Origin: Scenedesmus sp. ARA3
Lineage: Eukaryota; Chlorophyta; Chlorophyceae; Sphaeropleales; Scenedesmaceae
Direction of reading: 5' to 3'
DNA length: 64,000 nucleotides
Assembly (NCBI GenBank): GCA_004335835.1
Contig: RWJK01001511.1
Coordinates: 8,561-72,560, forward strand
The stretch's first letter is position 1. Every line of letters starts with the position of its first letter. Under the pieces are notes generated by a model, which was given only the letters and a program-made list of their open reading frames with translations, was not told the DNA's origin and did no database searches. Shown here one piece after another: positions 1 to 64,000 of the stretch. The position numbers and the translations under genes are program-made.

Positions 1-59
<59 letters not shown>
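1..59. repeat. (CAG)n microsatellite
   Basis: About 20 CAG units at the window edge; on the minus-strand gene this reads (CTG)n and probably lies in an intron. Similar runs occur at 432-474 and 809-858, each just upstream (in gene sense) of the acceptors of exons 348-425 and 665-799. Confidence 0.95.
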
Positions 60-61
<2 letters not shown>

Positions 62-6358: not shown

Positions 6359-7117
6359 ATGCTGGCCATGAAACATGCCTCCGTGCGCGGGGCGCCCACT
6401 CAAGGCCTGCACCCCGCCATTCCGCTGCTGCTGCAGCACGATTGCTTCTGCAGTGACCAGGCGATAGTATGTGCTCTGCTGCGTAGCTCCAAAACACTAC
6501 AGGAAGAGTGTGTCGCCTACTGCAATGGCAGGCTTGCAGTGACATGAAGCTTGCCAGGGCAGCAGAAAGAGCTACTGCATGACAGCACACCCTGCGTATG
6601 CTACTCACTTCTGCCCATGGACGAGAAGACCCCGCACGCCAAGTACTTTGCAGGATGGCTAGCCAAGCACGCAGCGCTTGCCAGGTCACTTACACTGCCT
6701 TGGGAGTGGACGCACTACAGCAGCAGCTGGCAGCGTGCAGCGGCAGCAGACCTGGCAGCTGGCTTGCAAGCAGCAGCAGCAGCAGGGCCAGCTGGCCTTG
6801 GCCTGCAGGCCCTTTCTGCTTGCAGCATAGAAGCTCCCATCCTTGAGCACCTGCCAGCCAACCAGCTGACATCGCTCAACCTGTCACACCACGGGGAACT
6901 GTGCGGCGTGGCAGCGGTCAACGCTGCCCTGTTACGTTTGACCAACCTGCGAGCCCTAGACCTGGACCACGCATCCTGGAAGGACGGAGCCGTGTGCTAC
7001 GACAGTGACCGACCCTGGAGTGTGCCTGAGCTGGCGCCGCAGTCCTGGCAGGACGCCTGCAGCAGTGCTGACAAGCTGCTGCCTGGCTTGACCGCCATGC
7101 AGCAGCTGACAAGGTGA

Positions 7118-9756: not shown

Positions 9757-9928
9757 TCATTCGTCCTGCCAAAACGCAAACTCGCTCCAGCGCTCATCTA
9801 CTGTTGCTGCAGCTGCAGCGTAACCCGTGCCGCTGAGCTCCGCCTCACTAACGCTGCACTGCTCAAGAATGACGCGCCGCAGCTGCGGCAGCCCAGAGAT
9901 GGCTGCTACCAGCTGATGGTCGTTCATA

Positions 9929-9971
<43 letters not shown>

Positions 9972-11702: not shown

Positions 11703-12050
11703 TCACCGTGTCAGCTGCCGCATTGCTGCCAGGCCAGGCAGCAGCGCGTCACAGCTCAAGCAGGCGTCATCCTGCCCCTCCCACAATAAACGCCTCAGCG
11801 TCCAAGCTGGGGCACCAAAAAGGTTGTGCAAAAAGCCAACGCTTGATGCGTCATGAGGTCGGGATGCGTGGGACAGGCTCAGGCTCCGCAGGTTGGTCAA
11901 ACGTAACAGGGCAGCGTTGACCGCTGCGACTCCGTGCAGCTCTCCTTTGTGTGAGAGGGTGAGAGATGTCAGGTGCTGTGGTGGAAGCTCTGAAATGATG
12001 GGAGCATCTATGCTGTGGGCTGTGAAGGCTTGCAGGACAATGCCTGATGG

Positions 12051-12085
<35 letters not shown>

Positions 12086-21188: not shown

Positions 21189-24100
21189 ATGCGCGGCCTC
21201 CCCTTATTAGGCCAGCAGCAAGCACTGCAGGGCAGTAGCACTAGGCGCAGCTGCAGGGCCTGCAGCGGCAGGCTTGTCTCGTTGCGGCCCTGCCCTGCAG
21301 CAGCAGTTGCCAGGCGCGCGGTCAGCAGGCGCAGCAGTGGCAGGACAGCAGCAGTGCGTGTAGCAGCATCGCTAGATTACATCGCAACAGCCAGCGATGA
21401 GGGAGTATTGAAACTTCCAGCTCGCACAGAACTGGACCCAGAAGAAATCAAGAGTGTTTATGGCTACCCCAGGTGAGCCTGGCAGAGCCCTGCAAAGTTT
21501 GTTTTGGATGCTAGGCATAAAGTGCGAGCCGATGTATGTGGCTGAGATCTGGAGCGTTCGTCAGCAGGCTTTCCTGCAAGCAGTGCAAGCAACAGCTGGA
21601 CCTGCGTTGACCAACACAGCAATTTCGACGTTTTGAAGACAGCCGCTCGCCTGTGGGCCACGCAGCAGTGACTACAGTGAACTTCACTGTGGTTATGCAG
21701 GCATAGCCGCACGTGGAAACCAACAGTGGCAGCGTAAGCTTGGTCTCTGCCAGTTTGCTGCCTTTTGGCAAGCATTTGGTGTGCGCAGCCTGCTTGCAGG
21801 AGTGTAAGCCTGCAGCGGTTTTTGCTAGCAGGAAACTTGTCTGCAGCTGTTTTTTTGTTTGCAGGAAACTGCAAGACTGCTATACTTGCGTTGTCCCAAC
21901 TCGTCACCACATCCACTACTTTTTTTGTCATGGGTATCACACTGTGTGCTGCCTGCCATGTCATGTGGTTATCGCCTGGACCTGCTCCCCGCAACTGGTT
22001 GTTGCTTGCTGCGCCTGCTGCTTGCAGGAACCTGCTGGACTCGTACTACCTGGGCCGAGTGATTGGCGCAGGCAGCTTTGGCGTGGTGCGGGAGGGCATC
22101 GAGGTGTCCACAGGGCGCCGGTTTGCTGTCAAGACTGTCAGCAAAGTGCCCAAGCGCGGCGCACCAACACCTAGGTGAGACGCGTGTGCAGCTGTGCAGC
22201 TGCAGGCGGTTGCAGTGGCACAGGAATGATGGTGTGAAGTTGGCCGGTTGTGCAGCAGCAGTTGCAGGGGACCGCCTGGCGCAGCTTGTTGCCATACATC
22301 TGTGGCCACCCCTGGGTTTCAACCCACTGTAAATCATGGTTGGCCATGTCACCTAGACCTGGCAAATTGGTCTTTTACATGCTGGATCACATCTGCGCCA
22401 CACAGGTACCTGCTCAAGCTGCGCGCTGAGGTGGAGGTGATGCAGCAACTGGGCGTGTCGCTCAACGCGGTGCACCTGCACGACGTGTTTGAGGACGACG
22501 TGAACGTGCACATGGTCATGGAGCTGTGCGAGGGCGGCGCGCTGCTGGAGCGCGTGGAGAGCGGCCGCTACAGCGAGCGCTACATCAGCTTCCTGGTGCG
22601 TAGCATCCTGCGCTTCATCGCGCAGTGCCACGCCAAGGTGAGGGCCAGAAAGCAGCTGGGCATGACAGGGGTGTGTGGTGGTGATTGTTTCGGAAGTGCT
22701 ACATCAGCTTTCTTGTGTGCAGCATCCTGCGCTTCGTCGCGCAGTGCCACGCCAAGGTGAGGGACACAAAGCAGCTGGGCATGACAGTGTTGCGCAGTGG
22801 TGATTGTTTCGGAAGTGCGACATCAGCTCCCTTGTGCGCAGCATACTGCGCTACATCGTGCAGTGCCACGCCAAGGTGGGCGGGCGCTGATTGTGGCAGA
22901 AGCGGGGGCAGTGCAGTTGCTGTATGGCGGAGCGGGGCTGTGGGCAGCACATGGCAGCCAGACGAGTTGCCATCTGTCCCAGCTGTGTGTACCACACGCT
23001 TTGACCCTGTTGTGCTTGCCCTGTGCTTGTCGACTGCCAATCATGTACCCGCAGGGCATCATCTACCGTGACGTGAAGCCGGACAACTTCCTGTTCCTGA
23101 CGCCCGAGGAGGACTCGCCGCTCAAGGCCACCGACTTTGGGCTGTCCATCCGGCACTACTCGCACGAGCCCAAGCTCACCAGCAGATCAGGTGGGCTTGA
23201 CAAGGGTGTAATCATGAGGCTGCGCTGAGCCAGCTGCACACATGCTGCCTTGGCAGTGACTGCTGCTTGGACAGCCACTTGGCACGGCTCGCACGAATCC
23301 GAGCTCACCGGCAGATCAGGTGCGGGCGGCAGGGTTGACAAACATCCAGCGGTGTGTAGCCAGCTGTAGCCGGCTGGATACATGTCTGCATTGGCAGTGT
23401 GTCAGCAGTTGCAGCAGTCCTGGCTGATCATTAAGGTGTACCTCTGCTGCCACCAGGCATCGTGGGCTGTGCTTGATTGCTGCTGTGGCTGCTGCTGCTG
23501 CGCTAGCTTATGGCGACGTCGCCACCCCTGCTGCTGGCGCGGCTGCAGGCAACCGGCGTACATGGCGCCTGAGGCGGTGATGCAGTGCACGCATTAGCAT
23601 CATTTTCTGGCTGTGTTTCAGTGCTGTGCTTGCTACTGCTGTGGTCTGCTGTAATGCGGCTGCAGGCACGCTGGCGTACTTGTCGCCCGAGCTGGTGATG
23701 CAGTGCTACAACGAGAAAGCTAGCCTGTGTGGTCGTGTATGATTGCTGCTGCTGTGACTGCTGCTGCTGCTGTATGCTGTGCTGCTGCAGGCACGCCGGC
23801 GTACATGGCGCCCGAGCTGGTGATGCAGTGCTACGACGCAAGGCTGCCTGTGTGACTGTATCTGATTGCTGCTGCTGTGGCTGCTGCTGCTGTGGCTGCT
23901 GCTGCTGCAGGCACGCCGGCGTACATGGCTCCCGAGCTGGTGATGCAGTGCTACGACGAGAAGGCCGACCTGTGGAGCGTGGGCATGCTGGGCTACCAGC
24001 TGCTGACGGGGCGCTTCCCCTTCTGGGAGGACGTGCGCAACGAGACGCTGAGCGACGTGTGGAAGGTGTGCAGCTATGACAAGAGTGACGAGGGTGACAA

Positions 24101-27100
24101 GAGTGGCGGGAGTGTAAGAGGAGCAGGAGGGGAGAGTGTGGTCAAGCAGCAGCAGGGCTCAGGCAGCACCTCGCTGCCGGCCGTGGTGATCGCGGTGCAG
24201 CTGCCGCCGCCGCCGCGGCTCAGCCTGTCAGCGCACGCGCTGCGTGCTGCGCGCTGGCTGCTGCGGTGTGCTGCCAGCGTGGCGCTGCAGAATGCTCTGC
24301 GCTGGCTGGTGCTGGGTGTGGTGCGGGTGGCGCTGCGGGTTGACCGCTGGTTTTCGCGCAGGGGGCCTCGTCAGCATGGCCCGCGGATGGTAAAGCTGGT
24401 GCACACTCCAAGCTTGGTGCTACGCACGCAGGTGGGGGTGGTGACGGCTGGAGAGAGCGCGAGAGAGTGAGAGCGAGAGAGTGAGAGAGAGGGAGTGTGA
24501 CGGAGAGGAGGGATTAGCAAGGGATGGGGAGGGGTAGTGGCTTGATGGGCTTCAGCACTCCCTGCAGTGCACTGCTTGCTTTCAACACAGAGGCTGTCTT
24601 CTGCGAGAACCGCTGGTGTGCTGCGCTGAGCCCTTCCCGTTGTCATGCCTCAACCACTGCTTACTGTCCTGTGCGATCTGTTTCCGTTCGGGTGCCAACC
24701 AACTCACTCCTCTGCTTCCCCTGGCTGGCTGTGCCCTCTGCTGGCCTACGCTATCTGTCATGTAACATGACATCACGTCACATCTCTCACCACTTGCAGG
24801 CCATTCTGTCCAACGAGATCGACTGGGACGCGCCGGAGCTGCAGCCGCTGAGCGCTGCTGCGCGCGACTTCCTGGAGCGGCTGCTGCAGCGCAACCCCGT
24901 GCTGCGGCCCAGCGCTGCTGAGGCGCTGGAGCACCCCTGGCTGGCGGTGGAGGGCGCTGCCAACGACATGCCGCTCAAGGTGCGGGGTGCTATGCGTAAA
25001 CGCATTGCGCGGGTGTGTGGATGTTGGTTGCTTTCGGCACGCGCGGGCACAGGGTGTCTGGCTTTCTTTTTGTTGCCTGCCGCGCTGTTGTGGCCGTGGT
25101 GTGCAATGCCCTGCCTGGGATCTGTTAATCCTCTCGTACTGCTTGCAGGCATCAGCTTTGAAGCAGTTTTTTCCCCAACCGTCAACCTGTTGCTGATGCT
25201 GTACGCCCGATGCTGCGCCGCCACTTCATCACCCCACCCTTGCAGGGCAGCGTGGTGCAGCGCCTGCAGCGCTTTGCCACCTACACGCACCTGAAGCAGG
25301 TGGTGCTGCGCATGATCACCGAGGACATGCGCAACCGCGGCAAGGCGCCCAGCTTCAGCAACGCGCTGCAGGTGTGGCACAGCAGCGTACAGCCTCAGCT
25401 AGCTACGCATGGCTTGTGTGGGGAGAAGAAGAGTCTGCGCTGCCGTTGCTGCGGCATATGCTCAGGGCGCCGGCACACCATTTCTGCCGACTGCAGTTGA
25501 CGCTGCAGCGGGAGCCGTTCAGCAGAGAAGTGTGCTGCTGTTGCTTCAGGTTCTGCCTAAAGGGGTTGTGAGCATGTACCGTTTTGTGCTGCCGGGTGCG
25601 CTACACCTGTTGCCATGTGTCGTGTGCCTGCTGTAATTGCCGACAACCAATGGATGTGGCTTGTCTGCTGCTGCTCCCTCCCTTTGCAGGCGCTGTTTTC
25701 AGTGTACGACACACTCCATTGCAGATGTGTGTGCTGCGTACACCCTGTTTCTGGATAGCTGTACTGTGCTGTTCATCACTGTGGCCTGACCGCTGCTGCT
25801 TGTCCCTTCCCTTGCAGGAGCTGTTTGCGGCGTACGACAACATTTCATTGCAGATGTGTGTTCTGCATACAACCTATTTCTGAATAGCTTTACTGTGCTG
25901 TTCATCGGTGTGGCCTGACCGCTGCTGCTTGTTCCCTGCCCTTGCAGGAGCTGTTTGCTGCGTACGACAAGGACAAGAGCGGCACCATCAGCTTTGAGGA
26001 GCTGGCGGACGGCCTGCGCGGCCAGGGCTACGTGGTCAACGAGTCCGAGGTGCGGCCCCTGACGCTGTTAGCTTACTTGTGGTTTGGTCTGCCAGGTGTA
26101 TATGTGGTGTCCCTGCAATTTTGGAGCGGCTTCTCCGTGTGTATGTTGCGCTACGTGGTCGACGAGGCCGCGGTGCGGCGATGCTGCAATTCACAGCGCT
26201 TGCTGTGGCCTTGTCATGCGGAGTTGAACAATCGCCAGGTTAATCGTTTTTGTGATGTACTTTGCTGACCACGTGCGGCTCGCTCCATCGCTGGCTGCTA
26301 GTGCTCCAACTGACGGAGCAGATGGTTGGTCTTGTGCTGTTCTCACTTCATATGTCGTCGCTGCTGCTGCCTCTTGCTGCTTATTGTCTTGTGCTTGCAG
26401 GTGCGGCAGCTGATGGAGAAGATGGACATGGACCACGACGGCAACGTGGGCGGCGATGAGTTCCTGGCCACGCTCATCGACTGGGGGCAGGTGAGGCGCT
26501 GTGTGTTTATCATGTAACAGGACGAGTTGTGTATGTTGGGGTGTCGTGCTGCAGCTGGTGGCTGCAATCTGGGTTGCTGGCCGCCAGCGCCGGTGCGTTG
26601 TACGCTCATCAACTGGGGGCAGGTGAGCGGCTGGCTGCTGCCAGCACTGCACTGCAGGACCCTGCCAGAGAAGCCGCTGGCATAGGTTGCGCTGCACGTG
26701 TCTGCTTGAGCTGGCTGGTACCTGGGCACTGGTTCTGCATGCAGTAGCAGCCGTGGCCATAAAGTTGCAGGCAGTGACTGTTCCTCGTGCCTGAGATGTG
26801 GTGATGTGTGTCGTGATTACATTGGCGCTCTGTCCCATCATTTGTGTTGCGCACAGCAAACTGAACACCCTCAACGGCCAATCCACAATTATCATTCGCA
26901 GGTCATGCAGGATCAGGAGTGGCAGAGTTACGTGGACCAGGTCTCAACCGCATGGACCTGCTGCTGCTGCTGCTCACCCCTCACCTTTGCCAACTGCCGT
27001 ATGTCAACTGTATCTGTGCCATTTCTTTGCTGCAGGTCATGCAGGAGCAGGAGTGGAGTCGTATGTGGACCAGGCCTTCAACCGCATGGACCTGCTGCTG

Positions 27101-36540: not shown

Positions 36541-36606
36541 CATCATGTTCTCGTTATGGGGCTTCTTTTGCGGCACAGCAGCTGCACCCATACTGTGTCA
36601 GGTTGT

Positions 36607-38576: not shown

Positions 38577-39541
38577 GCCATGTGAGCAAATGGCGTACAG
38601 GAATGCACAATGCACGATAATCGTCATCGATGTGTGGAGGCGCAGGTGGCATACTGCTGTACTTGGAGTGCACGTCTTGCATGTCTGTATGCGTACTTTG
38701 ACAAATGCTGCAAAGGCACATAGACAAGACTGGTTCGTCAGAACTGGTGAGCAGGCCTCAGCTCTAAATGGTTGTCATATGTTACAATCATTTCAAATGC
38801 TGTGACAGCTCACCTTGAGCCGCTCAGCCTTTGCCGCCTCCTGCACTGCTTTCTCTGCCGCCTTGGCCTGCCTGCAAGAGCGCAACATGAATCCTTTTAC
38901 TGTAGTTTCTTGGATGCTTCAAAAGCATGCTTGCATGCAACTGATGCAATCTATCTCGACAATCAACGAACTACCTAAGAAGCGCAGCTGGGTCACGGTG
39001 CAGCACAGCAGCACAAGTACATGCGGATGGAGCAGGCCGTGTCTCAGTTACTCAAAAATGCGGCGCCAGGGGTCGAAGTACGTGCTAAGGTTGCGTTGGA
39101 TTAGTCATGCTTGAGGCAGAGCTGTACATGCAGGAGTAATGCAACACTGCTGTGCAGTTCAGCCAGCGCCTCTGAGACACTTTGTGCAGCTAAACACAAA
39201 TCAGCAGCAGCAGTAGGAGCAGCAAGGAGACCACTCACTTTGCTGCCGCGGCCCTGTCCTGCAAGCTGTCTTCAGCAGCAGCAGCAGCAGCAGCGCTGCT
39301 GGCAGCAGCTCCTGCAGAGGGCAGCTGGCGTGTTGCATATGGCACATCCACCACCTTGGCTGGCTGGCCATCGACCAGCACAGTGATGCCCTTGAGAGGA
39401 ACCTGGAAGCAGCAGCAGGAGCGGCAACGGCAGCAGCGGCAGCAAGGTTGACAGCAGTGGCAGTTTTGGCACAAGCAGCACCACCATCCACCACCTTGGC
39501 TGGCTGGCCATCAACCAGCACAGTGATGCCCTTGAGAGGCA

Positions 39542-39578
<37 letters not shown>

Positions 39579-40388
39579 GCAGCAGCGGCAGCAGCAGCAT
39601 TGTTGGCAGCAGTGGCAGTTTTGGCGCAAGCAGCATCACCATCCACCACATTTCAGAGCCACCTGGCAGCAGCAGCAGCAGCAACGATGGTGGCAGCAAC
39701 GGTAGCACAATGTCAACACCAGCAGCATGACACAAGGGGCCTTGGTTGCTGTGCTACACTGTGTATGTACCATAGTGTGTGGTACCTCAATCAGCACTTT
39801 TTGGCACGCCGTGGCTGCTGGTCAGTCATGCAAGCTCCCAAAGCGCTGAAGCACCTGTCTTGCAGAACCACCTGGAACACATCCTGCACGTCACACATGC
39901 GTATGCACTGCAGCAGCGTGGCTACTGTTGAATGCGCAGCATGCCACATGGCATGCACACACATCAGCCTGCTGCAGCTGCAGCACCGCAGCCCTGGCCC
40001 GTCTGCTCACACTCTCACATGGCATGAACCACGTCACGGTTATGTTCAAGGCATGCAAGGACACCACTTGGCCCCTCGCACCTGCACCGCCGTGCACACA
40101 CAGCATGCCCTGCCGCAGGTGCATCACCACAGCCTTGCCAGCCACCTCCTGAGGCGGTGGAGGCCACCGGTTGGCTGCCACCCCAACAGTGTTGCCAACA
40201 CTGTGAATTTAGAAGTTTCGTAGATAAGTAGTTGTGTGCATATAACGCATGCTTCCACTGATGCAAGACAGCTTCACGCCTCGCACCTGCACCCCGCCCT
40301 TCCTGCAGCGAATGTAGCCAAGCCCAAAGTGGCCGCTCTTCTCCAGATTAGCATAGCTGGTCAGCCTGCCCAGCACCTCTCCAGCCGC

Positions 40389-40423
<35 letters not shown>

Positions 40424-43400
40424 CAGCGGCTTCTGCTGCTGCTGCTGCTGCTGTGATGGCTGCGCCTGGTGTAGCGCGGCAGCTGAGCTGCAGGCCCCAC
40501 AGCTGCTGCTTGACGCCGTTGGTGTTGGACAGCTGCAGGAAAGTGCGGCAAGTGTGTGGGGGCCCAGAAAACAACAAGGTGGTACAAGAGGCGGGGCACA
40601 AAGCACGCGTTTGTGACACCATGTAATCTTTATATTCATACAACTATAAATACTGTCAAGTGGCACTGCAGTTTGTATATGTACATACCCAACACAGCAT
40701 GGCCCAAGAACAACAGCCACGCACCCTGGGTAGCCAGCTAGCAGCACAACTTGTAAATCGAAACCTCGGCTTTACAATACCTTTGCCAGTGTTTCCTGTC
40801 CAATGTAGCAGCCCTTGTCGAGTGACACAGCATGGCACAGCCCAGCCTCATAGGGATGTAAAGCCTAGTGACAGCGGTGGTTCAGGTTGGAAAAACGGCC
40901 CACCCAACCTTTGCCAGTGTTTCTTGTCTGATGTAGCAGCCCTTGTCCAGCGACACAGCATGGCACAGGCCGGCCTCGTAGGGATTGACGCCTAATGACA
41001 GCTGTGGTTCAGTGAATAATAACCCAGCCCACCTTTGCCAGTGTTTCTTGTCCGATGCAGCAGCCCTTGTCGAGTGACACAGCATGGCACAGCCCTGCCT
41101 AATGACGCATGTGATCCATGAACAAGTAACTTCGCCCACCTTTGCCAGTGTTTCTTGTCCGATGTAGCAGCCCTTGTCGAGTGACACAGCATGGCACAGC
41201 CCCGCCTCGTAGGGGTTGAAGTCCTGTGTGAGCTCGCTGCCTGCTGCTGGGCGGCCTTGAGTGACGCGTGCGCGCTCCCAATCCGCCTCACCCATTGGCA
41301 CGCAGCCCTGCAGCAGCAGTGACAAAGGGTGACAGTGTTCCGTAACACATGTAACTGTTATTTTGCTGCTGGACGGCCTTGCGTGACGCGGGCGCGCTCC
41401 CAATCCGCCTCGCCCATTGGGACATACCCCTGCGGCAGCAGAAGCAGGGGACGTTGTTAATTAACACATGTAACTGTCGCTTCTGCTGCTGATGGGCGGC
41501 CTTGAGTGATGCGGGCCCTCTCCCAGTCAGCTTCACCCATAGGGACACTGCCCTGCAGCCGCAGAAGCAGGGGACATTGTTAAGTAACACATGTAACTGT
41601 CGCTTCTGCTGCGGAGCGGCCCAATAATGCGAGCACGCTCCCAGTCTGTCTGGCCCATTGGCACACAGCCCTACGGCAGCAGCAGCAAAAGGGTGAAAGT
41701 TTTAAGTGACACGTGTAACTGCTGCTGTGCTGCTGGGCGGCCTTGCGCGACGCGTGCCCTCTCCCAATCAGCTTCACCCATGGGGACATAACCCTGCGGT
41801 AGAAGCAGCAAACAACGGTAATCAATGATCCACATGTGACTGTTACTTTGCTGCTGGGCGGCCTCGAGTGACGCGGGCGCGCTCCCAGTCTGCCTCACCC
41901 ATTGGCACACAGCCCTGCGGTAGCAGCAGCAGACAACGGCAATCAATGCAACACATGTGACTGTCACTTTGCTGCTGGGCGGCCTTGAGTGACGCGGGCC
42001 CTTTCCCAGTCTGCCTCACCCATTGGCACACAGCCCTGCGGCAAGAAGGCGTCCATTGATGTTGAGTATAATGAAAAAGTTGATGATAAGAAAGGAGAAC
42101 AACATCACTGCAGGTACAAGGGCGCAGCATGCCACAGCTGGTTGATTGAGTGATGTACAGCCCCCACGAATTTATGCATTGCCTTATCTCTGTGCAGGCA
42201 GCACCCACCTTGTTCACGAGTGCGCGTACAGGTCAGCAGCGCCGCTCTGGTCCACAATCAAGGTGTAACCAGGGATGGCCAGGCCGCTGCCCACAGCCAC
42301 AATGACTATCAAACACCATTCAACCACGTTTCGACGCACCCTGCAGGTACGGGCGTGCAGCACTCACAAAGCTCTTGTCCTGGTACCGCGATGATCACCC
42401 TCAAGCCTTGATCTGCAGCATTCCGTGCGTGTCTCACCTTGTTTACGAGTGCCGCGTACAAGTCCGCCGCACCGCTCTGGTCCACAATGAAGGTGTAACC
42501 AGGAATGGCCAGGCCGCTGCCCACAGCCACAATAACAGGCGCCCCAGGCCCGAAGCGCAGCAGCTGGTGCCTGCAGTACGGCTCGCCTTGCAGCTTAAAC
42601 GCGTCCTGCAAGCAATCCAGGCAAGGCATGCGCTGTTGTGAGTGATGCGAAGAAACAACACCACTTCCTACAAGCCAGGCACCCGCATTAGGGCCGAAGC
42701 GCAGCAGCTGGTGCCTGCAGTATGGCTCGCCTTGCAGCTTAAACGCTTCCTGCAAGCGGTTCAGGCAAGGCATGCGATGTTGTGGGTGATGCGAAGAAAC
42801 AAATCACTTCATTTAAAGCCAGACAGGTGCCCCGGGGCCGAAGCGCAGCAGCTGGTGGCGGCAGTACGGCTCGCCTTGCAGCTTGAACGCGTCCTGCAAG
42901 CAATCCATGCAAGGCATGCGGTGTTGTGAAAGTTGCAAGGAACGACTCAGCCTCCTGCAAGCGAGACATGTGCACGAGAGGGAAGCAGCAGCTGGTGGCG
43001 GCAGTACGGCTCCCCTTGCAGCTTGACCGCGTCCTGCAAGCAATACAGCCAACAAGCTATCACTGTCAGTAAGAGAAGTTGCCACCAGTGTTATTAAGGA
43101 GCGCTTAGGGCCTACTTTGCAGGCTATACACAGGTGCAGGGGCAAAGGAGCAACAGCAGCTGGATACTTCAAGGCACGCCACGTGCATCATCATCCTCCT
43201 CACATCACCAAAATAGCATTAGCACTGTCGCCGTAGAGGTGTGCCACATCTCACTGCACAAACCCACCAGCTGCTGCACAGCATTGCATCTGCAAGTCCA
43301 GCACCCACCACCACACCACGCGCAACACGCAGTACACTTCACTCGTACGCTTAAGTGCTATATGCACTTTGTTTGTCAACAGCCGTACACCCTCAAGCCC

Positions 43401-43897
43401 TCACCCCTGCAAGCTCCTGCATGACGTCATCCGCCTGCGGCCCCAGAATTGTCAGCATGCCGCAGCGGCTGCTGACGTCGGACACCGCCACGTCATCAGC
43501 AGAACATACAACCTTGTCCAGGCGCTACTGGGATGCTGCTGGTTTACGCATGGCATCAAGCTGCAAACCTCAACACCCTTCATGCAAACAAAGGCACAGA
43601 ACCCCACCACACCATGAATCTTGAACCCTATTTGCAAATACACATGTAAACCCTCACCCCTGCAAGCTCCTGCATGACGTCATCCGCCTGTGACCCCAGG
43701 ATGGTCAGCATGCCGCAGCGGCCGCTGACGTCAGACACCTCCACGTCATCAGCAGGGAAGATGAACTTGTCCAGGCGCTGCAGCAGCGGCTGCCGCATGG
43801 TGGGTGACACCAGCAGCATCACGCTGCTCTCCAGCACAAGTGCTGTTGCCAGGTCCAGGCAGCGCGCCTGCGCATTCACCAGCACCTGCAGGACGAC

Positions 43898-43931
<34 letters not shown>

Positions 43932-44072
43932 GCGGCAGCAGCACACAGCCGGTTCATGTCACTGCAACATTCCATGGCGGGTGACACCAGCAGCATTACG
44001 CTGCTCTCCAGCACAAGAGATGTTGCGAAGTCCAGGCAGCGCGCCTGCGCATTGACCAGCACCTGCAGGACG

Positions 44073-44114
<42 letters not shown>

Positions 44115-45996
44115 CAGCCAGTTCATGTCGCTGCAACATTCCATGGCGGGTGACACCAGCAGCATCACGCTGCTCTCCAACACCAGCACTGTTGCGAGGT
44201 CCAGGCAGTGCGCCTGCGCATTCACCAGCACCTACAACAAGCACAAGAGGAGCAGCAGCCGCATTGTTACTGATCACCACACGACCCCAGCACAAGAGCT
44301 GTTGCGAGGTCCAGGCAGCGCGCCTGCGCATTCACCAGCACCTGCGACAAGAACAACAGGAGCAGCAGCCGCAGCCGCGTGTTACTGACAACTATAAAAC
44401 TCTCGTGTTGTGGCTTTGCAGCAGGCACACTACATTGATATTCCAAAATCCCCAAATACCTGCCGACACCAAGAGGGCAGCAGCGCAGCAGCTTCATGTC
44501 AATCCAGGGTTGCATGGCACGCTGATTGAGGGCTCATTCAAAGCATCATTTGATAAAAACATGCACACCGAATGGGCCTCACTGTCGCCTATTCTGCACG
44601 CACCGTGTCGCAGCCCTGCCCAGGCTTCAGCTGCTTAAAGTCGGCGGTTGACTGGTTGTGCAGCAGCGACAGCCGGTCCCCGCCAGACACGCGCAGCCGG
44701 CCCCAGTGCGACCTGTGCACAAGGGAACGGACGCAAGCAGTTGGGGGAGCGGGTTGCACTGGTGTGTGTTTCAGCTGCTACGCTGCAGGCGCCTGAGGAG
44801 ACGTTATGCAGCCAGCTCAGCTGCGGCGGCCACCTGTCAACCAGACAGTTGGAGAGACAACATGCAAGCAGCTCAGCTGCGGCTATAACCTGTCAACAGA
44901 CATTTGGAGAGCTAACAACATGCAAGCAGCTCAGCTGCGGCTGTTACCTGTCGACCAGAGCCACACCATGGCTCAGTGCTTCCACAACCTTGTCGGTGTT
45001 GTTGAAGGTAACGGCAACGCCAGCCGCCTGCAGCAGCAGCAGCAGCAACAAGGTGCAGTGGAGGCAACAATTCAGTGTGATGGGTACAAGGGCATTTGCT
45101 CAGGCTGATAGTCAGGCCTCCTGGCAGCTTTGCGGTTGTTGCAAGACCAACATTGAGGGCTGTTGCAGAAACAACATTGAGCAGGCTTTGTGATGCGTAT
45201 GCTGGGCTGGCTGGACTAGTTACTCCTGCTGCCTGCTGTTGTTTGGCTGATTGCTGTAGGACGACATTGACTGCTTTGACGCTGTGCGCTAGCTGCTGCT
45301 GTTCTGTGGCGCTGCTGCATGCAGCTTGCAGCACAGCAACTTGCGTGCATCAACTGCTGCCTTCACACCCGTCACAGAGCACCTGCTGATACTACGAGCC
45401 TACTGATGCGCTGCACATTCAGCCGGCTGCCTTCAGCATTCAGCGCAACTCACATCAAACTCGGCTCCTAGCTCCTGCTGGTATGACGCAATGTCTGCTG
45501 CATCAATGTCTGGCACTTCAATGCCAAGGGCACTCAAGTCCAGCCCAGATGGGGTTGACCTGGCAACTGGCAGCAGCCTGCTGCTGCTGCTGCTGCTGCT
45601 GCTGCCGCTCGGGCATGCTGCTGCAAGGTGTCTGCAAGTGTCAACAGCAGAGCAGAGCGGAATGAGACTGGCATGCTGCCAGTATTACAGCGCCATTGTA
45701 CGCATACACATTTCAGGTACCAGGCATGAATGACACATGCGAGATTGGCGTTGAACATACGTGCAGGAAGAGCCACACTCGGCCAGTGTGTTGTGGGTGT
45801 GAAGACCAGAAACAAGCACATCCGCCATACATTGGCAGACAAAGCACAAGGTATATCAAGAGTTTACGTTACTTAATCACCTGTACCTGCAGCAGGCGCT
45901 GTTCCTTCTCTTCGGCAGAGCAGCTGCTGGTGGCACTGCTGCTGCTACTGCTGCCGGTGTGCTTCGGCTTGTTACGTAAGGCTGGCGTGATTTCAT
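38468..45996 (-). CDS. IBA57.2: YgfZ/IBA57-family folate-binding protein, likely organellar
   Basis: Eleven phase-consistent exons give 522 residues: 45887-45996 (ATG 45996; an in-frame ATG also at 46131), 45454-45631, 44948-45027, 44604-44712, 43658-43885, 42438-42605, 41140-41307, 40287-40532, 39239-39402, 38814-38871 and 38468-38527. Hallmarks: SHWGRLRVSGGDRLSLLHNQ, LKPGQGCDT, CLDLATALVLESSVMLLVSP, and the YgfZ signature KGCYIGQE with its conserved cysteine. The C-terminus ends in a basic/Ala/Gln helix (AKAAEKAVQEAAKAERLK). IBA57/YgfZ proteins bind folate and help assemble 4Fe-4S clusters. The wording around the DRSHWGR and GQGCDT region resembles the plant plastid member, and an Arg/Ser/Ala-rich N-terminus supports organelle import. 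Introns hold about 22 partial exon copies. The symbol reflects resemblance, not proven orthology. Confidence 0.88.
39470..39672 (-). repeat. Two head copies of YgfZ exon 39239-39402
   Basis: Copies at 39470-39546 (VPLKGITVLVDGQPAKVVD, almost intact) and 39640-39672, each behind a (CTG)n run and acceptor, upstream of the true exon. Confidence 0.9.
40785..41096 (-). repeat. Three tail copies of the KGCYIGQE exon
   Basis: Copies at 40785-40860, 40912-40990 and 41032-41096 repeat EAGLCHAVSLDKGCYIGQET with donor, downstream of exon 41140-41307. A shorter tail copy of the following exon lies near 40055-40090. Confidence 0.9.
41369..42040 (-). repeat. Six head copies of the KGCYIGQE exon, ~120-bp period
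   Basis: Copies begin at about 41369, 41492, 41611, 41737, 41858 and 41977. Each repeats VPMGEADWERARV...GRP behind a CCYTGCAG-like acceptor and stops before the KGCY motif. Confidence 0.9.
42207..43040 (-). repeat. Partial copies around YgfZ exon 42438-42605
   Basis: One tail copy at 42207-42295 lies downstream. Three head copies at about 42685-42760, 42828-42905 and 42985-43040 (DAFKLQGEPYCRHQLLRFG) lie upstream. Confidence 0.88.
43406..44345 (-). repeat. Partial copies around YgfZ exon 43658-43885
   Basis: A tail copy at 43406-43530 lies downstream. Head copies at about 43975-44062, 44150-44232 and 44290-44345 (VLVNAQARCLDLAT) lie upstream, two of them after (CTG)n runs. Two tail copies of exon 44948-45027 lie at 44812-44905. 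Confidence 0.88.
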
Positions 45997-56744: not shown

Positions 56745-59700
56745 GCGGATGGCAGTGCAGTGAGTGCTGGTGCTGCACTCAGCAGCAGCGGCGGCAAGCA
56801 GCAGCAGCAGTCGCCAGCGCAGAGCAACATGCTGCAGCTGAAGGAAGTGATAGGCCAGGGCAGCTTTGGCATTGTGTACAGGTGAGGGCAGGGCTGTGCT
56901 GTGGTGTTTGTGGCTTTGTCAGGGCCAGTGTGAGGCTGGGTGCTTGGTTTGCGGGATGTGCAGCAGCTGTGATTGCAGGAAGCAACGGCTTCAGCCCCTG
57001 TTTGCTTGCGCGCTTGCGTGCTTGCCCATGCACAGCAGCTGCACAGCTCTCCGTGCTCTTCGTGCGTGCCTCCGTGCCTGTCTGGCTGCAACTGCCGCGC
57101 TGCATTCAAGTCGCTCTGAACATACCTTTACAGTTGACATGTCACTGTACTTGCAAAAGGCTGTTCCTGCTGCACGGCACTCTCATGTTAATGGGTATGT
57201 TCTGCTTCTGAACCACAGGGCCACCTGGCAGGGCGTGAGTGTGGCAGTGAAGCGGCCGCAGCTGCCTCTCCTGTTGCTGCTGATGCTCGTGTTGCACGTG
57301 ACCATGCTGTCATCTTCTATGCTGTAAGATAGAACCCACATGTAACTTGCCTCTCTCTCTGTATGCACCACATGCAGGGCCACCTGGCAGGGCGTGAGTG
57401 TGGCAGTGAAGCGGCTGCAGCTGCCGCTCATGTTGCTCCTGCTGCTCCTGTTGCACCTAATTATTCGGCCATCTTCTATGCTATAATATAGGACCCACAT
57501 GTAACTGCCCTCTCTCTCTGTATGCACCACATGCAGGGCCACCTGGCAGGGTGTCAGTGTGGCAGTGAAGCGGCTGCAGCTGCCGCCTGGTGCGCGTGCG
57601 CTGGGCGCTGCTGCTGCCGGCACGCACAACAGCTGGGGTGCTGGCTGCAGCTACACTGTGGGCAGCATGGCGGATGGCCGCACAGCAGGCCCGGGCAGCG
57701 GGGGCAAGCCTGACAAGCACGGCGGGCTGCTGAAGCAGGAGCACATGGCGGTGCAGGTGCGCACAAAATGAACCATTGTTTATGTTAACATTTGGTGTGA
57801 AATTCGTTGTCTGGGCAAGCATTAGCACATGGCGGTGCAGGTGAGGATATGCAGATCCAAGTAGATCGTACTTTTGCCTTGTGCAACAGCTGGGGTGCTG
57901 GCTGCAGCTACACCGTGGGCAGCATGGCAGATGGCCGCACAGTAGGCCTGGGCAGCGGGGGCAAGCCTGGACACGCATGGTGGCCTGCTGCAGCAGGAGC
58001 ACATGGCGGTACAGGTGCGCTCAAGTTGTAACATTGTTTTGTTCGTGCATTGGGTCGAAAGACACTGGACTGCTCAAGCAGAAGCGCATGGCGGTGCAGG
58101 TGCGCGCAAGTTGTATCCTTGGTTTGTTTTGCATTGGGTAGAAAGACACTGGGCTGTTGAAGCAGGAGCACATGGCGGTGCAGGGGTGAAGATGCACAGA
58201 ATCAAGGTGGTTGTACTTTAGCAGCCTGCTCCAACTTCCTTAACCGTTTTGTCTGCATTGCACTGTTTTTTGCTCGCAGGAAGCGGCTATTGGCAGCACC
58301 ATGGTGCACCCCAACATCGTGGCAGTCTACTCCATCACACTGCGGCCCAGCACAGCGCCCAACCCACCCGCCCAGGGCCTGCAGCCGGGCAGCGGCAGCA
58401 GCGGCGGCGTGCTGATGCTGGACCAGGGGCCGTCCAGCGGCGCTGCTGCTGCTGCTGCTGCTGCCGCGTCTGGCGGCACCGGGGGGCTGCAGGTGGTGGC
58501 GGGGGCTGCGGAGCTGCTGCCGTGGGAGATGCAGCTGGTGATGGAGTACTGCGACCAGGTGGGGCTGCAGATATGAGCCTGAATTTGTGACTTGCGGGAC
58601 TTTGTGTCACTTGGTGGGGCTGCTGCACATTCATGACGTGGTGATGCAGATGGTGATGGAGTACTGCAACCAGGTGATTCTGCATCCCAGTATGTGGTTC
58701 CAGCTGGGCTGCGTGGGTGGCGGTATGTGTTGCGTGACCTAGTGCGGTTGCTGCACATTGCGTGACATGGCAATGCAGCTGGTGTTGGAGTACTGCGACC
58801 AGGTGCGGCTTGCAGGCGATTGTGTTGTTTAGGTTGGGCTGCGTGGGTGGCGGTGGTGTGTTGCGTGACCTAGTGCGGCTGCTGCACATTGCGGGACGTG
58901 GCAATGCAGCTGGTGATAGAGTGCTGCTGTGCCGTGTGGATCTGGCGACTTGTGTGGTATTGAGTGACTTGTGTAACTTTTGTGACCTGGTGGGGCTGCG
59001 GAGCTGCTGCCGTGGGAGATGCAGCTGGTGATGGAGTACTGCGACCAGGTGCGGCTGATTGTGTTATAATGTACGGACAGTATGACATGTGTGGTTTGGT
59101 GAGTGTGCAGCAGATTCCTTGGCTTGGTGCGCTTGCAGGACACTACTGCACTACCCCGCCCTGCCCTGCAGAACACTGTTGCCAGCAGGAGTTCATAATA
59201 TACACAGCGCTGCTTTTCACAGCACACAAAACATACGCTGGTGTTTTGTGGTTTACAGGATGCATTGATGTATGTAACGCCGCTGTGCTCTGCAGGGCAC
59301 GCTGCACCAGGCGCTGGACGCAGGCCTGCTGGTCAACAACGCCATCATCGACTGCCACCTGCTTGCCTGTGTTACAACAATGCTATGTAACAACACCGCT
59401 TTGTGCTGCAGGGCACGCTGCGCCAGGCGCTGGACGCAGGCCTGCTGGTCAACAAGGCCACTGGCTGCCACCTGCTTGCCTGTCTTTCAACACTGTTATG
59501 TAACAATGTTATGTAACAACACCGCTTTGTGCTGCAGGGCACGCTGCGCCAGGCGCTGGATGCAGGGCTGCTGGTCAACAAGGCCACCGGCTGCCACTTG
59601 CTTGCCTGTGTTATAACATTGTTTTGTTATGTGACAATATATGTGTATGCTGCAGGGCACGCTGCGCCAGGCGCTGGATGCAGGGCTGCTGGTCAACAAG

Positions 59701-62700
59701 GCCACCGGCTGCCACTTGCTTGCCTGTGTTATAACATTGTTTTGTTATGTGACAATATATGTGTATGCTGCAGGGCACGCTGCGCCAGGCGCTGGATGCA
59801 GGGCTGCTGGTCAACAAGGCCACCGGCTGCCACTTGCTGCCTACGGTGCTGTCTCTGGCGCACAACATCGCCTGCGCGATGCACTACCTGCACCAGGTGC
59901 GGCTGGTGTCCCAGCATCGTAGCAATATGGTTGTAGGGTTGTAAAGGGAGAGTTTTCATTTTACAACATATAAGCAGTTGTTTTTGTTGATTCAAGCACG
60001 TGCGGGGTGGGCGTACGGTTGCATGGCTTGCAATCAGCGTCCGCTTCACTGGCAGGTTGCCGGGTGGGCCAGCCAGCCAGAAGCCAGCACACTTTATGCG
60101 CACAGGCAAGTTCACAACCTGCTGCTGCTGCTGCTCGTTTGTTGTGCTGGCTGCAACAACAGGAGCACATCATCCACGGAGATCTGAAGGCCAGCAACGT
60201 GCTGCTCCAACCATGCACTCCGCAAATGCTCACACACACTGCTGTCACTGCCTCTGTTTGGGGTGGCCTTGTACCACTGTGTTTCAGGAGCACATAATCC
60301 ACGGAGACCTGAAGGCCAGCAACGTGCTGCTGAAGACGTGCATCCCAGCCATGATCAGTAGCGGTAGCAACTGTGTCAGCGGCAACAGCGCCGCGGCAGC
60401 CGTGGCAGCCGCCGCTGCTGTGTCGGCAGCAGCAGCAGGCACCAGCAGCAGCCAGTGGCTGAGCACATCGGGGTCAACAACAGCAGCAGGTGGCTCAGAT
60501 CGTGCTGACGCACAGTCAGCAGCAGCAGCAGCAGGTGCGGCAGCGGTGCCTGCCAGCAATGCGATCATGGGCGTGGCGGCAGCAGCAGCGGAGGAGAGCA
60601 GCAGCGGCATGCATTGCCTGATCAAGGGAGGCTGGGTGGTGGGCAAGGTGAGGGCTGCGGGCTGCTGCTGCACCACTGGAGCAGCTGTGACTTCTCCCTT
60701 TGACGGACATGAAATTTGGTGCCTGGAGTGGCATGCTGCTCCTACCTGCTGTGCCGCAGGCGACTGATGTGCATGCCAGCATGCACTAGATGCTATCCGG
60801 TGTTTGGAGTGCTGGCCTATACGTGGGGCAGATGCGCTGTAGTGTGTGCCGCATTTGTTACACAAACCGATGTCCATGCTGCTGCTGCTGTTGCAGGTCT
60901 CTGACTTTGGGCTGAGCCTGTGCGTAGACCCTGGCGAGACGCATGTGTCCAGCGTGCACGCGGTGAGGCATGAAGCAACACATCGGTTGCATGCTTCTGA
61001 TTGTATTGTAGGCTGCCTTTGCATTGCCATTTCATAGTCTACACCTGATGCCGCTGCAATGTAACCATCATCGTCAACCCTGCAATGTTGCGCTGTACTC
61101 TGCTGCAAAAGCTCGTATGACAATGTGCCTTAACCCCCTTCTGCACGCCATGCCCTACATTAAGATGGCACCAACGCCCTTGTGGCCTCTGCTGTGCACG
61201 CATGCATGCATTAGGTTGTGTGCTGATGCATTAGGTTGTGGCCTCTGCTGAGCACGCATGCATGCATTAGGTTGTGTGGCCTCTGCTGTGCACGCATGCA
61301 TGCATTAGGTTGTGTGGCCTCTGCTGTGCACGCATGCATGCATTCTAGGTTGTGTGGCCTCTGCTGTGCACGCATGCATGCATTAGGTTGTGTGGCCTCT
61401 GCTGAGCACGCATGCATGCATTCTAGGTTGTGTGCTGATGCACGGGCATGCTAGCTCAGCCACAGCAACCTGTATGCCTGCTGACATGTCCTTTTGCTGT
61501 CATCTCATGTGTTGCTCTATGCCTGCAGGGCACGCTGACGCACATGGCGCCGGAGCTGCTGATGCATGGCCGCTGCAGCAGGGCCAGCGATGTGTACAGC
61601 TGCGGCGTGCTGCTGTGGGAGCTGGCTACGGGCGGCAAGGCCTTCGCAGGTGAGAGGGATGGGCTTGTGACTGCCGTTTTGATTGACAGTGATGTGTATG
61701 CAGTGAATTGTGCATGTGCATGACGTGTACAGCTACGGCGTGCTGCTGTGGCAGCTGGCCACCGGTGGCAAGGCCTTTGCAGGTGAGAGAGCCTTGTGAC
61801 AGTGACAGTGATGCGTATGCAGTGGACTGTGCATATGTGTGAAGGTGTACAGCTACGGCGTGCTGCTGTGGGAGCTGGCTAGGGGNGGGGGGGGGGAAGG
61901 CCTTTGCAGGTGAGAGGGGGTCGGCTTTATTGTCAGTTGAGGTGGCTTTTTTGCACAAGCAGCTTTGGGCATTGTTTGCTGTTTGGCATTCCTTTCAGGG
62001 GATCTGGACACAAGGGGCAAGGCCTCCGCAGGTGAGAGCGGCTGGGCTTCTGAGGGCCGTCTTGATTGACAGTGATGTATGCAGTGGAATGTGCATGTGC
62101 ATGACGTGTACAGCTACAGCGTGCTGCTGTGGGAGCTGGCCACAGGCGGCAAGGCATTTGCAGGTGAGAGTCGCTTGCTAGATGAGCTTGGTACATGCAT
62201 TCCACAGTGCAGCAAAGACAGGTGTCTTCTGGCAGATCCACGGCAGCCTGCTGTGGGAGCTGGCGACAGGCGGCAAGGCCTTCGCAGGGAGAGGGGGTGG
62301 GCTGCATGGTCAGTTGAGTGGCCCTGGCCCTGTTGTTGTGGCCTTTGGTCCTGGACTTGATGACTGAAACCTTGATAATATTTGCGCCGCAGGCATCCCC
62401 AAGCCGCTGCTGGGCCACTGCATCGTGAGCCAGGCCACGCTCATCATCATCATCATCATCACGTTACCCATCAAGCCATAGCATAGCCATAGCCAGGCCA
62501 CGCTGCCCTGCCGTAACCTGAATCTAACTACTGCTGATATATTCTTGAGTACTGATGCGCCGCAGGCATCCCAAAGCCGCTGCTGGGCCACTGCATCGTG
62601 AGCCAGGCCACGCGGCCGTGCTGTCACCTGATATTATATAATTAGGTTTCAAACTTGATGATGTAAACCTTCATAACTTATGTAATCTTGATTAATATTG

Positions 62701-64000
62701 ATTATTTTTGCGCCGCAGGCATCCCCAAGCCGCTGCTGGGCCACTGCATTGTGAGCCAGGCCATGCGGCCCTGCTGGCCGCCTGCCATGCGGCTCAACCC
62801 GGCCTGGGGCGGCATCATCCGGCTGGCTGAGGCGTGCTGGGCGCAGGAGCCGCACGCACGGTGAGGCTGTGGTTTTAACTTTTTACTGGCGACTATTTGG
62901 CTGTGTTGGTTGCGCGGTGTTTGAGGGAATGTGGCACAGACTGCCAATTGCATGTTTGCTGGTTGTACGTTTGGCAGAGGATTGTTGGGTGTACGGCATA
63001 CACAGTTGCCTGAGGCCGGCCCTGCTAGCCGCCCGCCATGCGGCTCAACCCGGCCTTATCCGGCTGACTGAGGCGTGCTGGGCGCAGGAGCCACACGCAC
63101 GGTGAGAAGTGCGCTGTTGTATAGCACATGCCATTGGGGTTATTGTGCAGGCAGGGAAGCCGTCGCAGATGTGCTGTACAACCATGGCAGAGCAGCGCAA
63201 CGTCTGCAAGCAAGCACACAAAGGTTTGCGGGCTGCAGACTTGCGTTGCGCATGCACAGCTGCTGATGCTCAGCAGGCGCATGCTGATTTTATCTGCTCG
63301 TGTCTCACACACATGTGTGCCTGCCTGTGCTTGTGCATGTGCTTGCGCGCAGGCCCACGTTTGCCAACATCGTGCAGTCGCTGAACCGCATGCTCAAGCA
63401 GAACCCCACTGATGCACTCAGCCCAGCAGCACCCAGCAGCAGCGCGACACTCAGCACACCTGGCAGCAGCATGCTACAGCAGTGGCACGCCGCACCAGCA
63501 GCAGCAGCAGCAGGGTCTGGCAGTGCCGGGCTCCCGGAGTTAAACCCCGGGGTTCAGCAGGCAGCTGTAAACCCTGCCGGCCAGCCAAGCCCGAGCGGTG
63601 CCCTGCTGGCCAACTTGGCAAAGTATGGCATAGAGCCTGCTGGTACTGCTGCTGCGGCGGCTGGGGCCATTGCTGCTGCTAGGGCCGATGCTGCAGGGAA
63701 TCCTGCTGGTGCCATGCAGGGCTTGCAGCCAGGCGTGGCAGCAGCAGCAGCAGCAGGAGGTGCAGCTGGGCCCAAAGATGTGCTGCAATGGCTGCAGGGC
63801 CTCACAGAGTCCCATGTGACATCTTCTACAGGGACCTTTGAGTTTGGGGACAGTAACACGATGGTTGTGCCAATGGCAGGACAGCAGATGGCGCAGCCGT
63901 GGAGCAGCGACGCAGCAGCAGCAGCAATAGTGCCGGCGGCCAGTCAGCAGCAGCAGCTGCCGCCGGCTGGGTGGCAGCCGCCGCAGCCGTCAGCACAGCA
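49641..64000 (+). CDS. Membrane-spanning TKL-type protein kinase (3' end outside window)
   Basis: Exons: 49641-49884, 50083-50333, 50970-51493, 51885-52047, 52342-52545, 52843-53163, 54283-55429, 55666-56881, 57537-57756, 58280-58558, 59774-59896, 60288-60647, 60897-60962, 61529-61649, 62719-62860 and 63353 to the edge. All phases agree, giving about 2,009 residues so far. Residues 1-22 look like a signal peptide. A ~1,000-residue presumed extracellular region, with NxS/T sites and a Gln/Ala-rich second half, precedes a membrane helix (AIAGVVVGCIVGVVLAGLLGLL, ~55937-56005) followed by RRRR. The kinase domain starts at IGQGSFG and has VAVKR, HGDLKASNVLL, SDFGLS, APELL, SDVYSCGVLLWEL and a closing CWAQEPHARPTF, typical of tyrosine-kinase-like (TKL) Ser/Thr kinases. 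The catalytic loop reads HGD rather than HRD, and long Ala/Ser inserts lie between subdomains. A low-complexity tail follows. The ligand is unknown. Confidence 0.87.
53278..53683 (+). repeat. Two tail copies of kinase exon 52843-53163
   Basis: Copies at about 53278-53417 and 53590-53683 repeat GPGGSASLQWPGPLPQQ...AADQGSQ with GTGAG donors, downstream of the true exon. Confidence 0.92.
54022..54078 (+). repeat. Head copy of kinase exon 54283-55429
   Basis: Repeats VSCHESQDSS-VHWATE with its GCTGCAG acceptor, upstream. A short tail copy (FALPRTG-like, then GTGAGC) lies at about 55530-55560. Another tail copy, of exon 50970-51493, lies at 51566-51585. Confidence 0.85.
57219..57430 (+). repeat. 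Two head copies of kinase exon 57537-57756
   Basis: Copies from 57219 and 57377 (period ~158 bp) repeat ATWQGVSVAVKR including the ATP-binding lysine, with acceptor, and then turn into CTCTCT-rich intron sequence. Confidence 0.92.
57824..58186 (+). repeat. Four tail copies of kinase exon 57537-57756
   Basis: Copies end with donor at about 57841, 58014, 58104 and 58183. The second is long (57880-58014, NSWGAGCSYTVGSMADGR...MAVQ). All are downstream of the exon. Confidence 0.88.
58640..59049 (+). repeat. Four tail copies of kinase exon 58280-58558
   Basis: Copies of MQLVMEYCDQ plus GT donor end near 58673, 58801, 58926 and 59049, separated by a shared GGCTGC-rich spacer. Confidence 0.88.
59297..59773 (+). 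repeat. Four head copies of kinase exon 59774-59896
   Basis: Starts at 59297, 59412, 59539 and 59656 (periods 115, 127, 117, then 118 to the true exon) repeat GTLRQALDAGLLVNKATGCHL behind a CTGCAG acceptor. The last 118-bp unit is a virtually perfect duplicate of the one before it. Confidence 0.93.
60160..60212 (+). repeat. Head copy of the catalytic-loop exon 60288-60647
   Basis: Repeats EHIIHGDLKASNVLL behind an acceptor-like CAACAG, upstream of the true exon. Confidence 0.9.
61182..61430 (+). repeat. ~43-bp intronic tandem repeat
   Basis: Six units of GTGGCCTCTGCTGTGCACGC followed by ATGCATGCATTAGGTT inside intron 60963-61528. Unlike the other arrays it has no exon sequence. Confidence 0.9.
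61720..62289 (+). repeat. About five tail copies of kinase exon 61529-61649
   Basis: Copies ending near 61781, 61910, 62031 (fragment), 62162 and 62288 repeat VYSYGVLLWELATGGKAFAG with GTGAGAG donors (the last has GGAGAG). They are downstream of the true exon. Confidence 0.88.
62381..62615 (+). repeat. Two head copies of kinase exon 62719-62860
   Basis: Copies at 62381-62441 and 62556-62615 repeat IPKPLLGHCIVSQAT behind CGCCGCAG acceptors. The first is interrupted by a 49-nt insertion. A tail copy (CWAQEPHAR, GTGAGA) lies downstream at 63003-63104. Confidence 0.92.
62442..62490 (+). mobile_element. 49-nt insertion flanked by a 14-bp direct repeat
   Basis: AGCCAGGCCACGCT occurs at 62428-62441 and again at 62491-62504, framing an (ATC)n-ACGTTACCCATCAAGCCATAG insert. 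A close relative of the insert lies at 37925-37965. It resembles a short insertion with target-site duplication, but no terminal inverted repeat is evident and replication slippage is also possible. Confidence 0.35.

Follow-up and report, generated by a model that had tools for sequence, protein, structure and literature searches.

Locus, gene models and sample

The DNA analysed here is a stretch of 64,000 nucleotides (the window) from contig RWJK01001511.1 of GenBank assembly GCA_004335835.1, positions 8,561 to 72,560 of the forward strand, deposited under the name Scenedesmus sp. ARA3. It holds three modelled genes, whose introns contain tandem arrays of copies of their own splice junctions, hereafter called junction arrays. 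The window belongs to the nuclear genome of the green alga Tetradesmus (Scenedesmus) obliquus, and the protein of its calcium-dependent protein kinase (CDPK) gene is identical to T. obliquus protein P0001 over the whole query. The genome in which it lies comprises 87,267,035 bp in 1,567 contigs.

Gene models were built without reference to the copies. The CDPK gene (plus strand, modelled from 21300 to 28777, 11 exons) was delimited by spliced alignment of P0001. Similarly, the GcvT/YgfZ-like gene (minus strand, 45996-38471, 11 exons) was delimited using P0122; both models have GT-AG introns. For the protein kinase gene (plus strand, modelled part 56826-63407), exons were concatenated by reading, resulting in a less independent model. 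A further sample was taken from chaperonin (CCT/Cpn60) genes at twelve loci on 11 other contigs. Their exon borders were placed using consecutive Pfam hits together with reading frame, splice-site score and hidden Markov model (HMM) spacing, and no full proteins were used. Following removal of five introns with weak or frame-inconsistent borders, 22 of 27 introns, from nine loci, were kept. The total sample consisted of 50 modelled introns with 100 junctions, 28 introns lying in the three window genes and 22 in the chaperonin loci.

Copies of splice junctions and their polarity

Junction templates of 60 nt of exon and 20 nt of intron were searched against the 50 introns with a score threshold of 50. 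Copies were found at 38 of the 100 junctions, 95 in all: 48 at 17 of the 50 donors and 47 at 21 of the 50 acceptors. The window genes contributed 56 copies (CDPK 17, GcvT-like 18, kinase 21) and the chaperonin loci 39. An earlier note, made by a model from the letters of the window and their open reading frames, had described copies of exon ends with their splice site in introns on both strands, and these counts bear it out. In 300 control comparisons of a template with a foreign intron, the 99th percentile of the score was 36 and the maximum 61, so that at least one control passed the threshold.

Donor copies always lay downstream of their own exon and acceptor copies always upstream. None of the 38 donor or 38 acceptor templates gave a wrong-side match when tested against the modelled intron that precedes or follows in the gene, which was the nearest one modelled and not always the adjacent one. 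The polarity that the earlier note called unfailing was thus upheld. It is, however, bound to arise whenever a duplicated tandem segment extends across a junction, since the truncated exon piece must then sit on the intron side; taken alone it is weak evidence and does not discriminate between explanations. Among the collected arrays, none reached both exons of one intron. Comparison of exon overlaps with exon lengths in the three window genes yielded no copy spanning a whole exon, in agreement with the earlier note, in which whole-exon duplicates were not seen.

Arrays in the window

The CDPK gene (plus strand) contains six arrays. Exon 22406-22637 is followed by a donor array (22576..22878) with two downstream copies of exon tail plus donor, at offsets of 119 and 238, and exon 23055-23190 by a donor array (23152..23322) with one tail copy at offset 129. 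Upstream of exon 23911-24065, an acceptor array (23533..23974) holds three head copies with acceptor. The acceptor array of exon 25948-26049 (25655..25970) has only about 23 exon nt in its unit. The EF-hand exon 27283-27495 is flanked on both sides, by an acceptor array with three upstream head copies (26896..27342) and by a donor array with seven tail copies (27446..28452), the latter containing an assembly gap at 28185-28270.

In the GcvT-like gene (minus strand), a short donor array (44806..44959) at exon 45027-44948 has about 12 exon nt in its unit. Exon 43885-43658 carries an acceptor array with three head copies (43796..44373) and a donor array with one tail copy at offset 253 (43395..43779). 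The same arrangement recurs at exon 42605-42438, with three head copies in the acceptor array (42535..43052) and one tail copy at offset 229 in the donor array (42206..42536). At exon 41307-41140, six head copies with a period of about 121 form the acceptor array (41241..42043) and three tail copies the donor array (40779..41219). Finally, exon 39402-39239 has one head copy in its acceptor array (39345..39652).

The kinase gene (plus strand) has an acceptor array with two head copies (57216..57586) and a donor array with three tail copies (57627..58222) at exon 57537-57756, and a donor array with three tail copies (58506..59057) at exon 58280-58558. Four head copies precede exon 59774-59896 (acceptor array 59276..59842), the nearest having an exon part identical to the exon in the alignment stack, and one head copy precedes exon 60288-60647 (60160..60331). 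Exon 61529-61649 is followed by five tail copies (donor array 61589..62292), and exon 62719-62860 has two head copies (acceptor array 62383..62776) and one tail copy at offset 241 (donor array 62766..63106). A single N at 61886 lies inside a G run within an array; together with the gap at 28185-28270 it marks assembly trouble at arrays.

Unit size and share of intron length

Of 38 arrays, 33 had a first-step offset of 97-177 bp; the other five had one of 229-258 bp, which resembles two units. The offset was divisible by three in 13 of the 38; as most offsets are not multiples of three, plain extension of the exon would often shift the frame. With the minisatellite described below excluded, junction arrays made up 14,184 of 30,576 intron bp (46%), and the non-array remainder had a median of 264.5 bp per intron. 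Intron length followed 392 + 116 x copies (r = 0.79), median length being 720 bp in the 29 introns with copies vs 287 bp in the 21 without. Mean intron length is 462 bp in T. obliquus vs 230-302 bp in its relatives Raphidocelis, Monoraphidium and Chromochloris and in Chlamydomonas (PMC5966456, Table 1). Junction arrays could explain this difference, for which the accessible part of that report gives no cause within the introns.

Junction specificity

A second collection, made without reference to junctions, took in tandem repeats that overlap the 50 introns and resulted in 40 arrays. A splice junction was contained in 39 of these. The weakest of the 39 was the short array at 44806..44959, which lies at the score threshold and was missed by the junction templates. 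The sole exception was an intron-only 38-bp minisatellite on the plus strand (61180..61434), whose tie to the next exon is a weak 69.5% match only. Plain minisatellites with a unit unrelated to gene structure were rejected as a description of the arrays on the same count of 39 out of 40 in modelled introns. Eleven further repeats were seen in exon-side flanks; seven were arrays already counted and four belonged to junctions outside the 50 introns.

One account of such a pattern is ordinary random tandem duplication followed by survivorship: duplications internal to exons would be purged, those at junctions and in introns would survive, and no targeting would be involved. It needs no new process and explains both the polarity and the lack of exon-only duplications. 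Under random placement, 58% of arrays should span a junction if introns were 231-287 bp long, like the short introns that are free of arrays, or 36% with present intron lengths. Against 58% expected among survivors, 39 of 40 were observed; the chance of at least 39 at 0.58 is 1.2e-8 if the arrays are independent. Further direct repeats (score at least 36, offset 25-400) were absent from 14,778 bp of array-free, simple-repeat-masked intron, as they were from shuffled sequence.

The position of the junction within the unit also speaks against survivorship. Exon share was computed from exon overlaps and first-step offsets, leaving out the five arrays with larger offsets; a permissive extension for unit boundaries ran through entire arrays and was not used. 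In 34 units shorter than 200 bp, the junction lay near mid-unit, with a mean exon share of 0.44 (standard deviation 0.12, range 0.11-0.75). This departs from a uniform distribution (Kolmogorov-Smirnov p = 3e-4 for uniform 0-1 and 1.3e-3 for uniform 0.1-0.9). Such centring is not to be expected if random duplications are simply filtered by survival, and we regard this explanation as quite unlikely.

Alternatively, the junction itself may cause the duplication. Diverged alleles would share homology in their exons but not in their introns, so that synthesis during repair between them would lose homology at the exon-intron border and restart at a nearby microhomology, and the border would become duplicated; in variants of this idea, paired nicks or a polymerase that pauses at the splice site would be the cause. 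Such a cause would explain the junction specificity, the centring, the missing intron-only arrays and the restriction of copy likeness to the exon part. By reading, the GcvT-like protein of the window combines residues typical of P0122 with others typical of P0123 (itself 97% identical to P0121). This mixture suggests alleles that have diverged and recombine. The account is wholly inferential, and duplication caused by the junction is in our judgement doubtful. Within it, homology-loss repair at borders between diverged alleles is the version we favour for why junctions are hit, tentatively so.

Inclusion of copies in annotated isoforms

By spliced alignment, P0001 and P0122 omit the copies. 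One copy is included in each of two other T. obliquus records, P0003 and P0121. In P0003, a 12-nt cassette exon is placed at 22745..22756 (plus strand), inside the first tail copy of array 22576..22878, by which CHAK is repeated. As the second tail copy contains these 12 nt too, it is ambiguous which copy P0003 uses. P0121 contains a 78-nt in-frame cassette exon, absent from P0122, at 41475..41552 (minus strand), consisting of a head copy that ends at a chance donor. P0121 corresponds to record OEZ85_004730 on a separately recorded 4.7-Mb contig, and its copy peptide is encoded at 41552-41475 of the window; that copy is therefore not peculiar to this assembly. The earlier note had proposed that the extra pieces are removed with the intron. 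This holds for P0001 and P0122, which skip them, and has to be qualified by the two annotated isoforms that include one.

P0003 also extends CDPK exon 23911-24065 in frame to 24431, and P0002 has the same extra peptide, which represents a long alternative exon end in these database models.

State of the copies

The AG or GT was intact in 90 of the 95 copies and missing from five, unaligned ones being counted as missing. Scores above the 5th percentile of true sites were reached by 44 of 48 donor copies and 37 of 47 acceptor copies. Net frameshifts within the 45 exon nt that were aligned were present in 6 of 95 copies, or in 10 of 74 with another template. The word "decayed" used in the earlier note consequently calls for correction: decay alone does not describe the copies, whose exon parts and splice dinucleotides are preserved better than their intron parts.

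When the 95 copies of 38 arrays were compared with the true exon, 4.6% of bases had changed at codon positions 1-2 and 16.5% at position 3, and the figure for the outer intron flank was 18.1%. The resulting codon-position ratio was 0.28 (95% confidence interval 0.20-0.39 on bootstrapping over the 38 arrays), compared with 0.5 for a copy under simple neutrality. It was 0.22 (0.15-0.37) for acceptor arrays and 0.35 (0.22-0.54) for donor arrays, the latter interval including 0.5. Detection favours copies with conserved exon parts, which affects the exon-intron contrast and should not affect the codon-position ratio. Indels in exon parts were at 0.22 (0.09-0.41) of the neutral expectation, and changes at aligned AG/GT bases (3 of 185) at 0.18 (0-0.42). 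Only one of 329 classified changes created a stop codon, with an expected stop share of 3.8% under the observed spectrum. Changes unique to a single copy were only mildly codon-biased (4.2, 3.5 and 6.6% by codon position; 103 nonsynonymous, 59 synonymous, 1 stop).

Identity of the exon part and of the intron flank correlated at r = 0.12, both in 94 true-copy pairs and in 114 copy-copy pairs. Simple neutral decay of the copies was rejected, on the ratio of 0.28 vs 0.5 and on this almost independent decay of exon and intron parts. The exon parts would so be kept alike by exchange with the exon, by selection, or by both, and the rates of change suggest selection on the copies.

These figures could mean that the copies are working alternative exons, a reservoir of cassettes and alternative ends kept by selection, rather than tolerated debris. 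The two isoforms that use a copy, the low codon-position ratio, the scarcity of indels and of changes at AG/GT, and the single stop would all agree with this. On the other hand, the interval for donor arrays includes the neutral value, five copies have lost the dinucleotide, and the unique changes show little codon bias. A strong opposite splice site within 12-124 nt was absent in 59 of the 95 copies, and the best candidate site gave an open in-frame exon in 14; the criterion is strict, both annotated cassette exons falling outside the 14. General use of the copies as cassette exons was likewise not supported by this test, which misses the two known cases. Moreover, the same ratios, and with them an appearance of constraint, could arise without function if copies exchange sequence with the exon or if diverged alleles were involved in the duplication, so that functional copies are not to be concluded from these ratios. 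We consider working exons an unlikely explanation for the arrays.

Occurrence beyond the modelled genes

In 119.6 kb of unmodelled window and random contig sequence, 25 arrays had a median junction-like signal of 13.8 vs 9.3, exceeding 250 control windows (p = 5e-4), and only 10 of the 25 lay above the control 90th percentile. A table of 294 HMM exon hits from four families, which has low power, contained 15 overlapping pairs. Nine of these had the expected polarity (six upstream head copies and three downstream tail copies), and none was clearly reversed. Three pairs appeared to involve whole hits, two being copy against copy and one a short hit (contig C1400) read as a head copy. The remaining three (on C899, C577 and C1075, 22098-22199) fitted neither pattern; no repeat of score at least 40 was present in the sequence at the C899 and C577 pairs, which were taken as alignment artefacts.

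Assembly artefact, in the form of misassembled or duplicated reads, might be suspected from the gap inside the array of the EF-hand exon. Most copies, however, differ from the exon and from each other, the peptide of the P0121 copy is found in a record from a separate contig, and arrays recur on many contigs. An artefactual origin is accordingly highly improbable.

Several further observations were made. The chaperonin locus L034 (G000:C837:13500-23499) has three modelled introns of 232-259 bp, all array-free, and two other chaperonin loci hold 11 arrays each; the arrays seem clustered by gene. More arrays are visible in unmodelled parts of the window, with exon-like content at 46900-47817 (a coiled-coil-like gene) and 53026-54336 (upstream of the kinase). 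At 36604-37082, where no gene was modelled, a 28-bp minisatellite is present in about 17 copies. A direct repeat (34350-34634 and 35756-36029, 286 aligned bp, 87% identity, 1.4 kb apart) also lies outside modelled genes. By eye, open frames resembling leucine-rich, F-box-like paralogues occur on both strands at 6548-7117, 9757-10533 and 11703-12506.

Proposed mechanism

Recurrent tandem duplication across splice junctions, followed by local amplification and use of the exon-side site, is the best explanation of these data and, in our view, probably correct. We infer the following order of events. A local tandem duplication, mostly of about 100-160 bp, would first straddle a junction and so take in an exon end, its splice site and adjacent intron. 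Slippage or unequal exchange would then probably have multiplied the founding unit inside the intron. The message would stay right through use of the exon-side site: in a donor array the donor that comes first, in an acceptor array the acceptor that comes last. Both sides may obey one rule, exon definition, under which the sites nearest to each other on either side of an exon are paired. Introns would thereby have been lengthened from about 260 bp to 380-1580 bp. Exon parts of the copies may stay in register most simply by exchange or conversion with the exon, perhaps with the help of selection. Where an exon ends in AG, each unit between donor copies would run from GT to AG, so that stepwise removal should be harmless as well. 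The proposal of the earlier note that introns grow by tandem duplication across exon-intron borders, giving the spliceosome many decoy sites, is supported in the present sample.

A number of points weigh against this explanation. Intron sequence decays faster than the exon parts, and old intron-only duplications may therefore be missed. In 18 of 24 multi-copy arrays the best intron-flank identity between some pair of copies was at least 0.75, unrelated flanks averaging 0.57-0.60; because flanks are still alike in these arrays, the objection weakens the contrast between junction and intron-only duplications without removing it. Exon definition is deduced from survivors only. The copies evolve more slowly than the simple neutral model predicts, and "inert decoys" is perhaps too simple a description. 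The splicing patterns are read from protein homology and from database gene models. The sample comprises three neighbouring genes and one gene family and is not a random sample of the genome, and no array was found in the chaperonin locus L034 (10 kb) or in four of eight random 10-kb stretches. Array density thus varies, and the general mode of intron growth put forward in the earlier note is an extrapolation from this sample.

A wider claim may be formulated as a genome-wide process that targets splice junctions, duplicates about 100-160 bp there and hardly ever within introns only, has roughly doubled intron length, and yields new cassette exons from in-frame, splice-competent copies. We put this forward as possible, short of an even chance.

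Significance and comparison with known systems

Intron lengthening is usually credited to transposable elements and diffuse indels. In the introns sampled here, length is largely explained by one countable event, duplication of a junction, which makes growth, its rate and its mechanism measurable. The arrays are also natural experiments on splice-site choice, near-identical donors or acceptors competing with one another and the exon-side one appearing to win. They show a route to new cassette exons, as the copied exon ends are already in frame and already have a splice site. In annotation and in RNA-seq alignment, they are likely to give rise to false exons and false junctions. A literature search, which covered few subscription papers and in which most hits were judged by their entries, returned no description of junction-copy arrays. 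The two nearest accounts, of AGGT intron gain (PMC3443670) and of Daphnia introns (PMC4202315), do not in their accessible parts present arrays of splice junctions as the main constituent of introns.

Tandem exon duplication, like mutually exclusive exons, involves copies of entire exons that include both splice sites. The junction arrays resemble these in that copies of exon sequence lie beside the exon and may be alternatively spliced, two annotated isoforms including one copy each. They differ in that one exon end with one splice site is copied, 59 of the 95 copies being without a strong opposite site. Introner elements are dispersed, related elements that add sequence to algal introns in a genome-wide process. 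The addition of sequence to the introns of algae is shared with the present case. A single dispersed family was rejected, however, as self-comparison of the window (plus strand) gave 112 near direct repeats vs one far.

In the AGGT model, as set out in the accessible part of its description, duplication of a coding segment gives rise to a new intron between two AGGT copies, making use of the likeness of donor and acceptor sites (PMC3443670). As far as that part goes, both cases involve a transcribed stretch of a gene that is locally duplicated in tandem and concealed by splicing. Unlike in AGGT intron gain, the intron here pre-exists, the unit holds one real junction, and growth proceeds by whole units. 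Birth of the AGGT type, by which the 5′ part of an intron would resemble the start of the downstream exon, was rejected: donor and acceptor templates matched the other-side modelled intron in 0 of 38 and 0 of 38 cases.

For newly gained introns of Daphnia, internal direct repeats have been read, in the accessible part of the report, as products of repeated staggered breaks, with a passive trend to longer introns (PMC4202315). Recurrent local duplication is thus proposed to lengthen introns in both systems. The repeats described there for adjacent exon ends measure 4-12 bp, whereas the units of the junction arrays mostly measure 100-160 bp, comprise a median of about 60 nt of exon together with a splice site, and reach up to seven copies.

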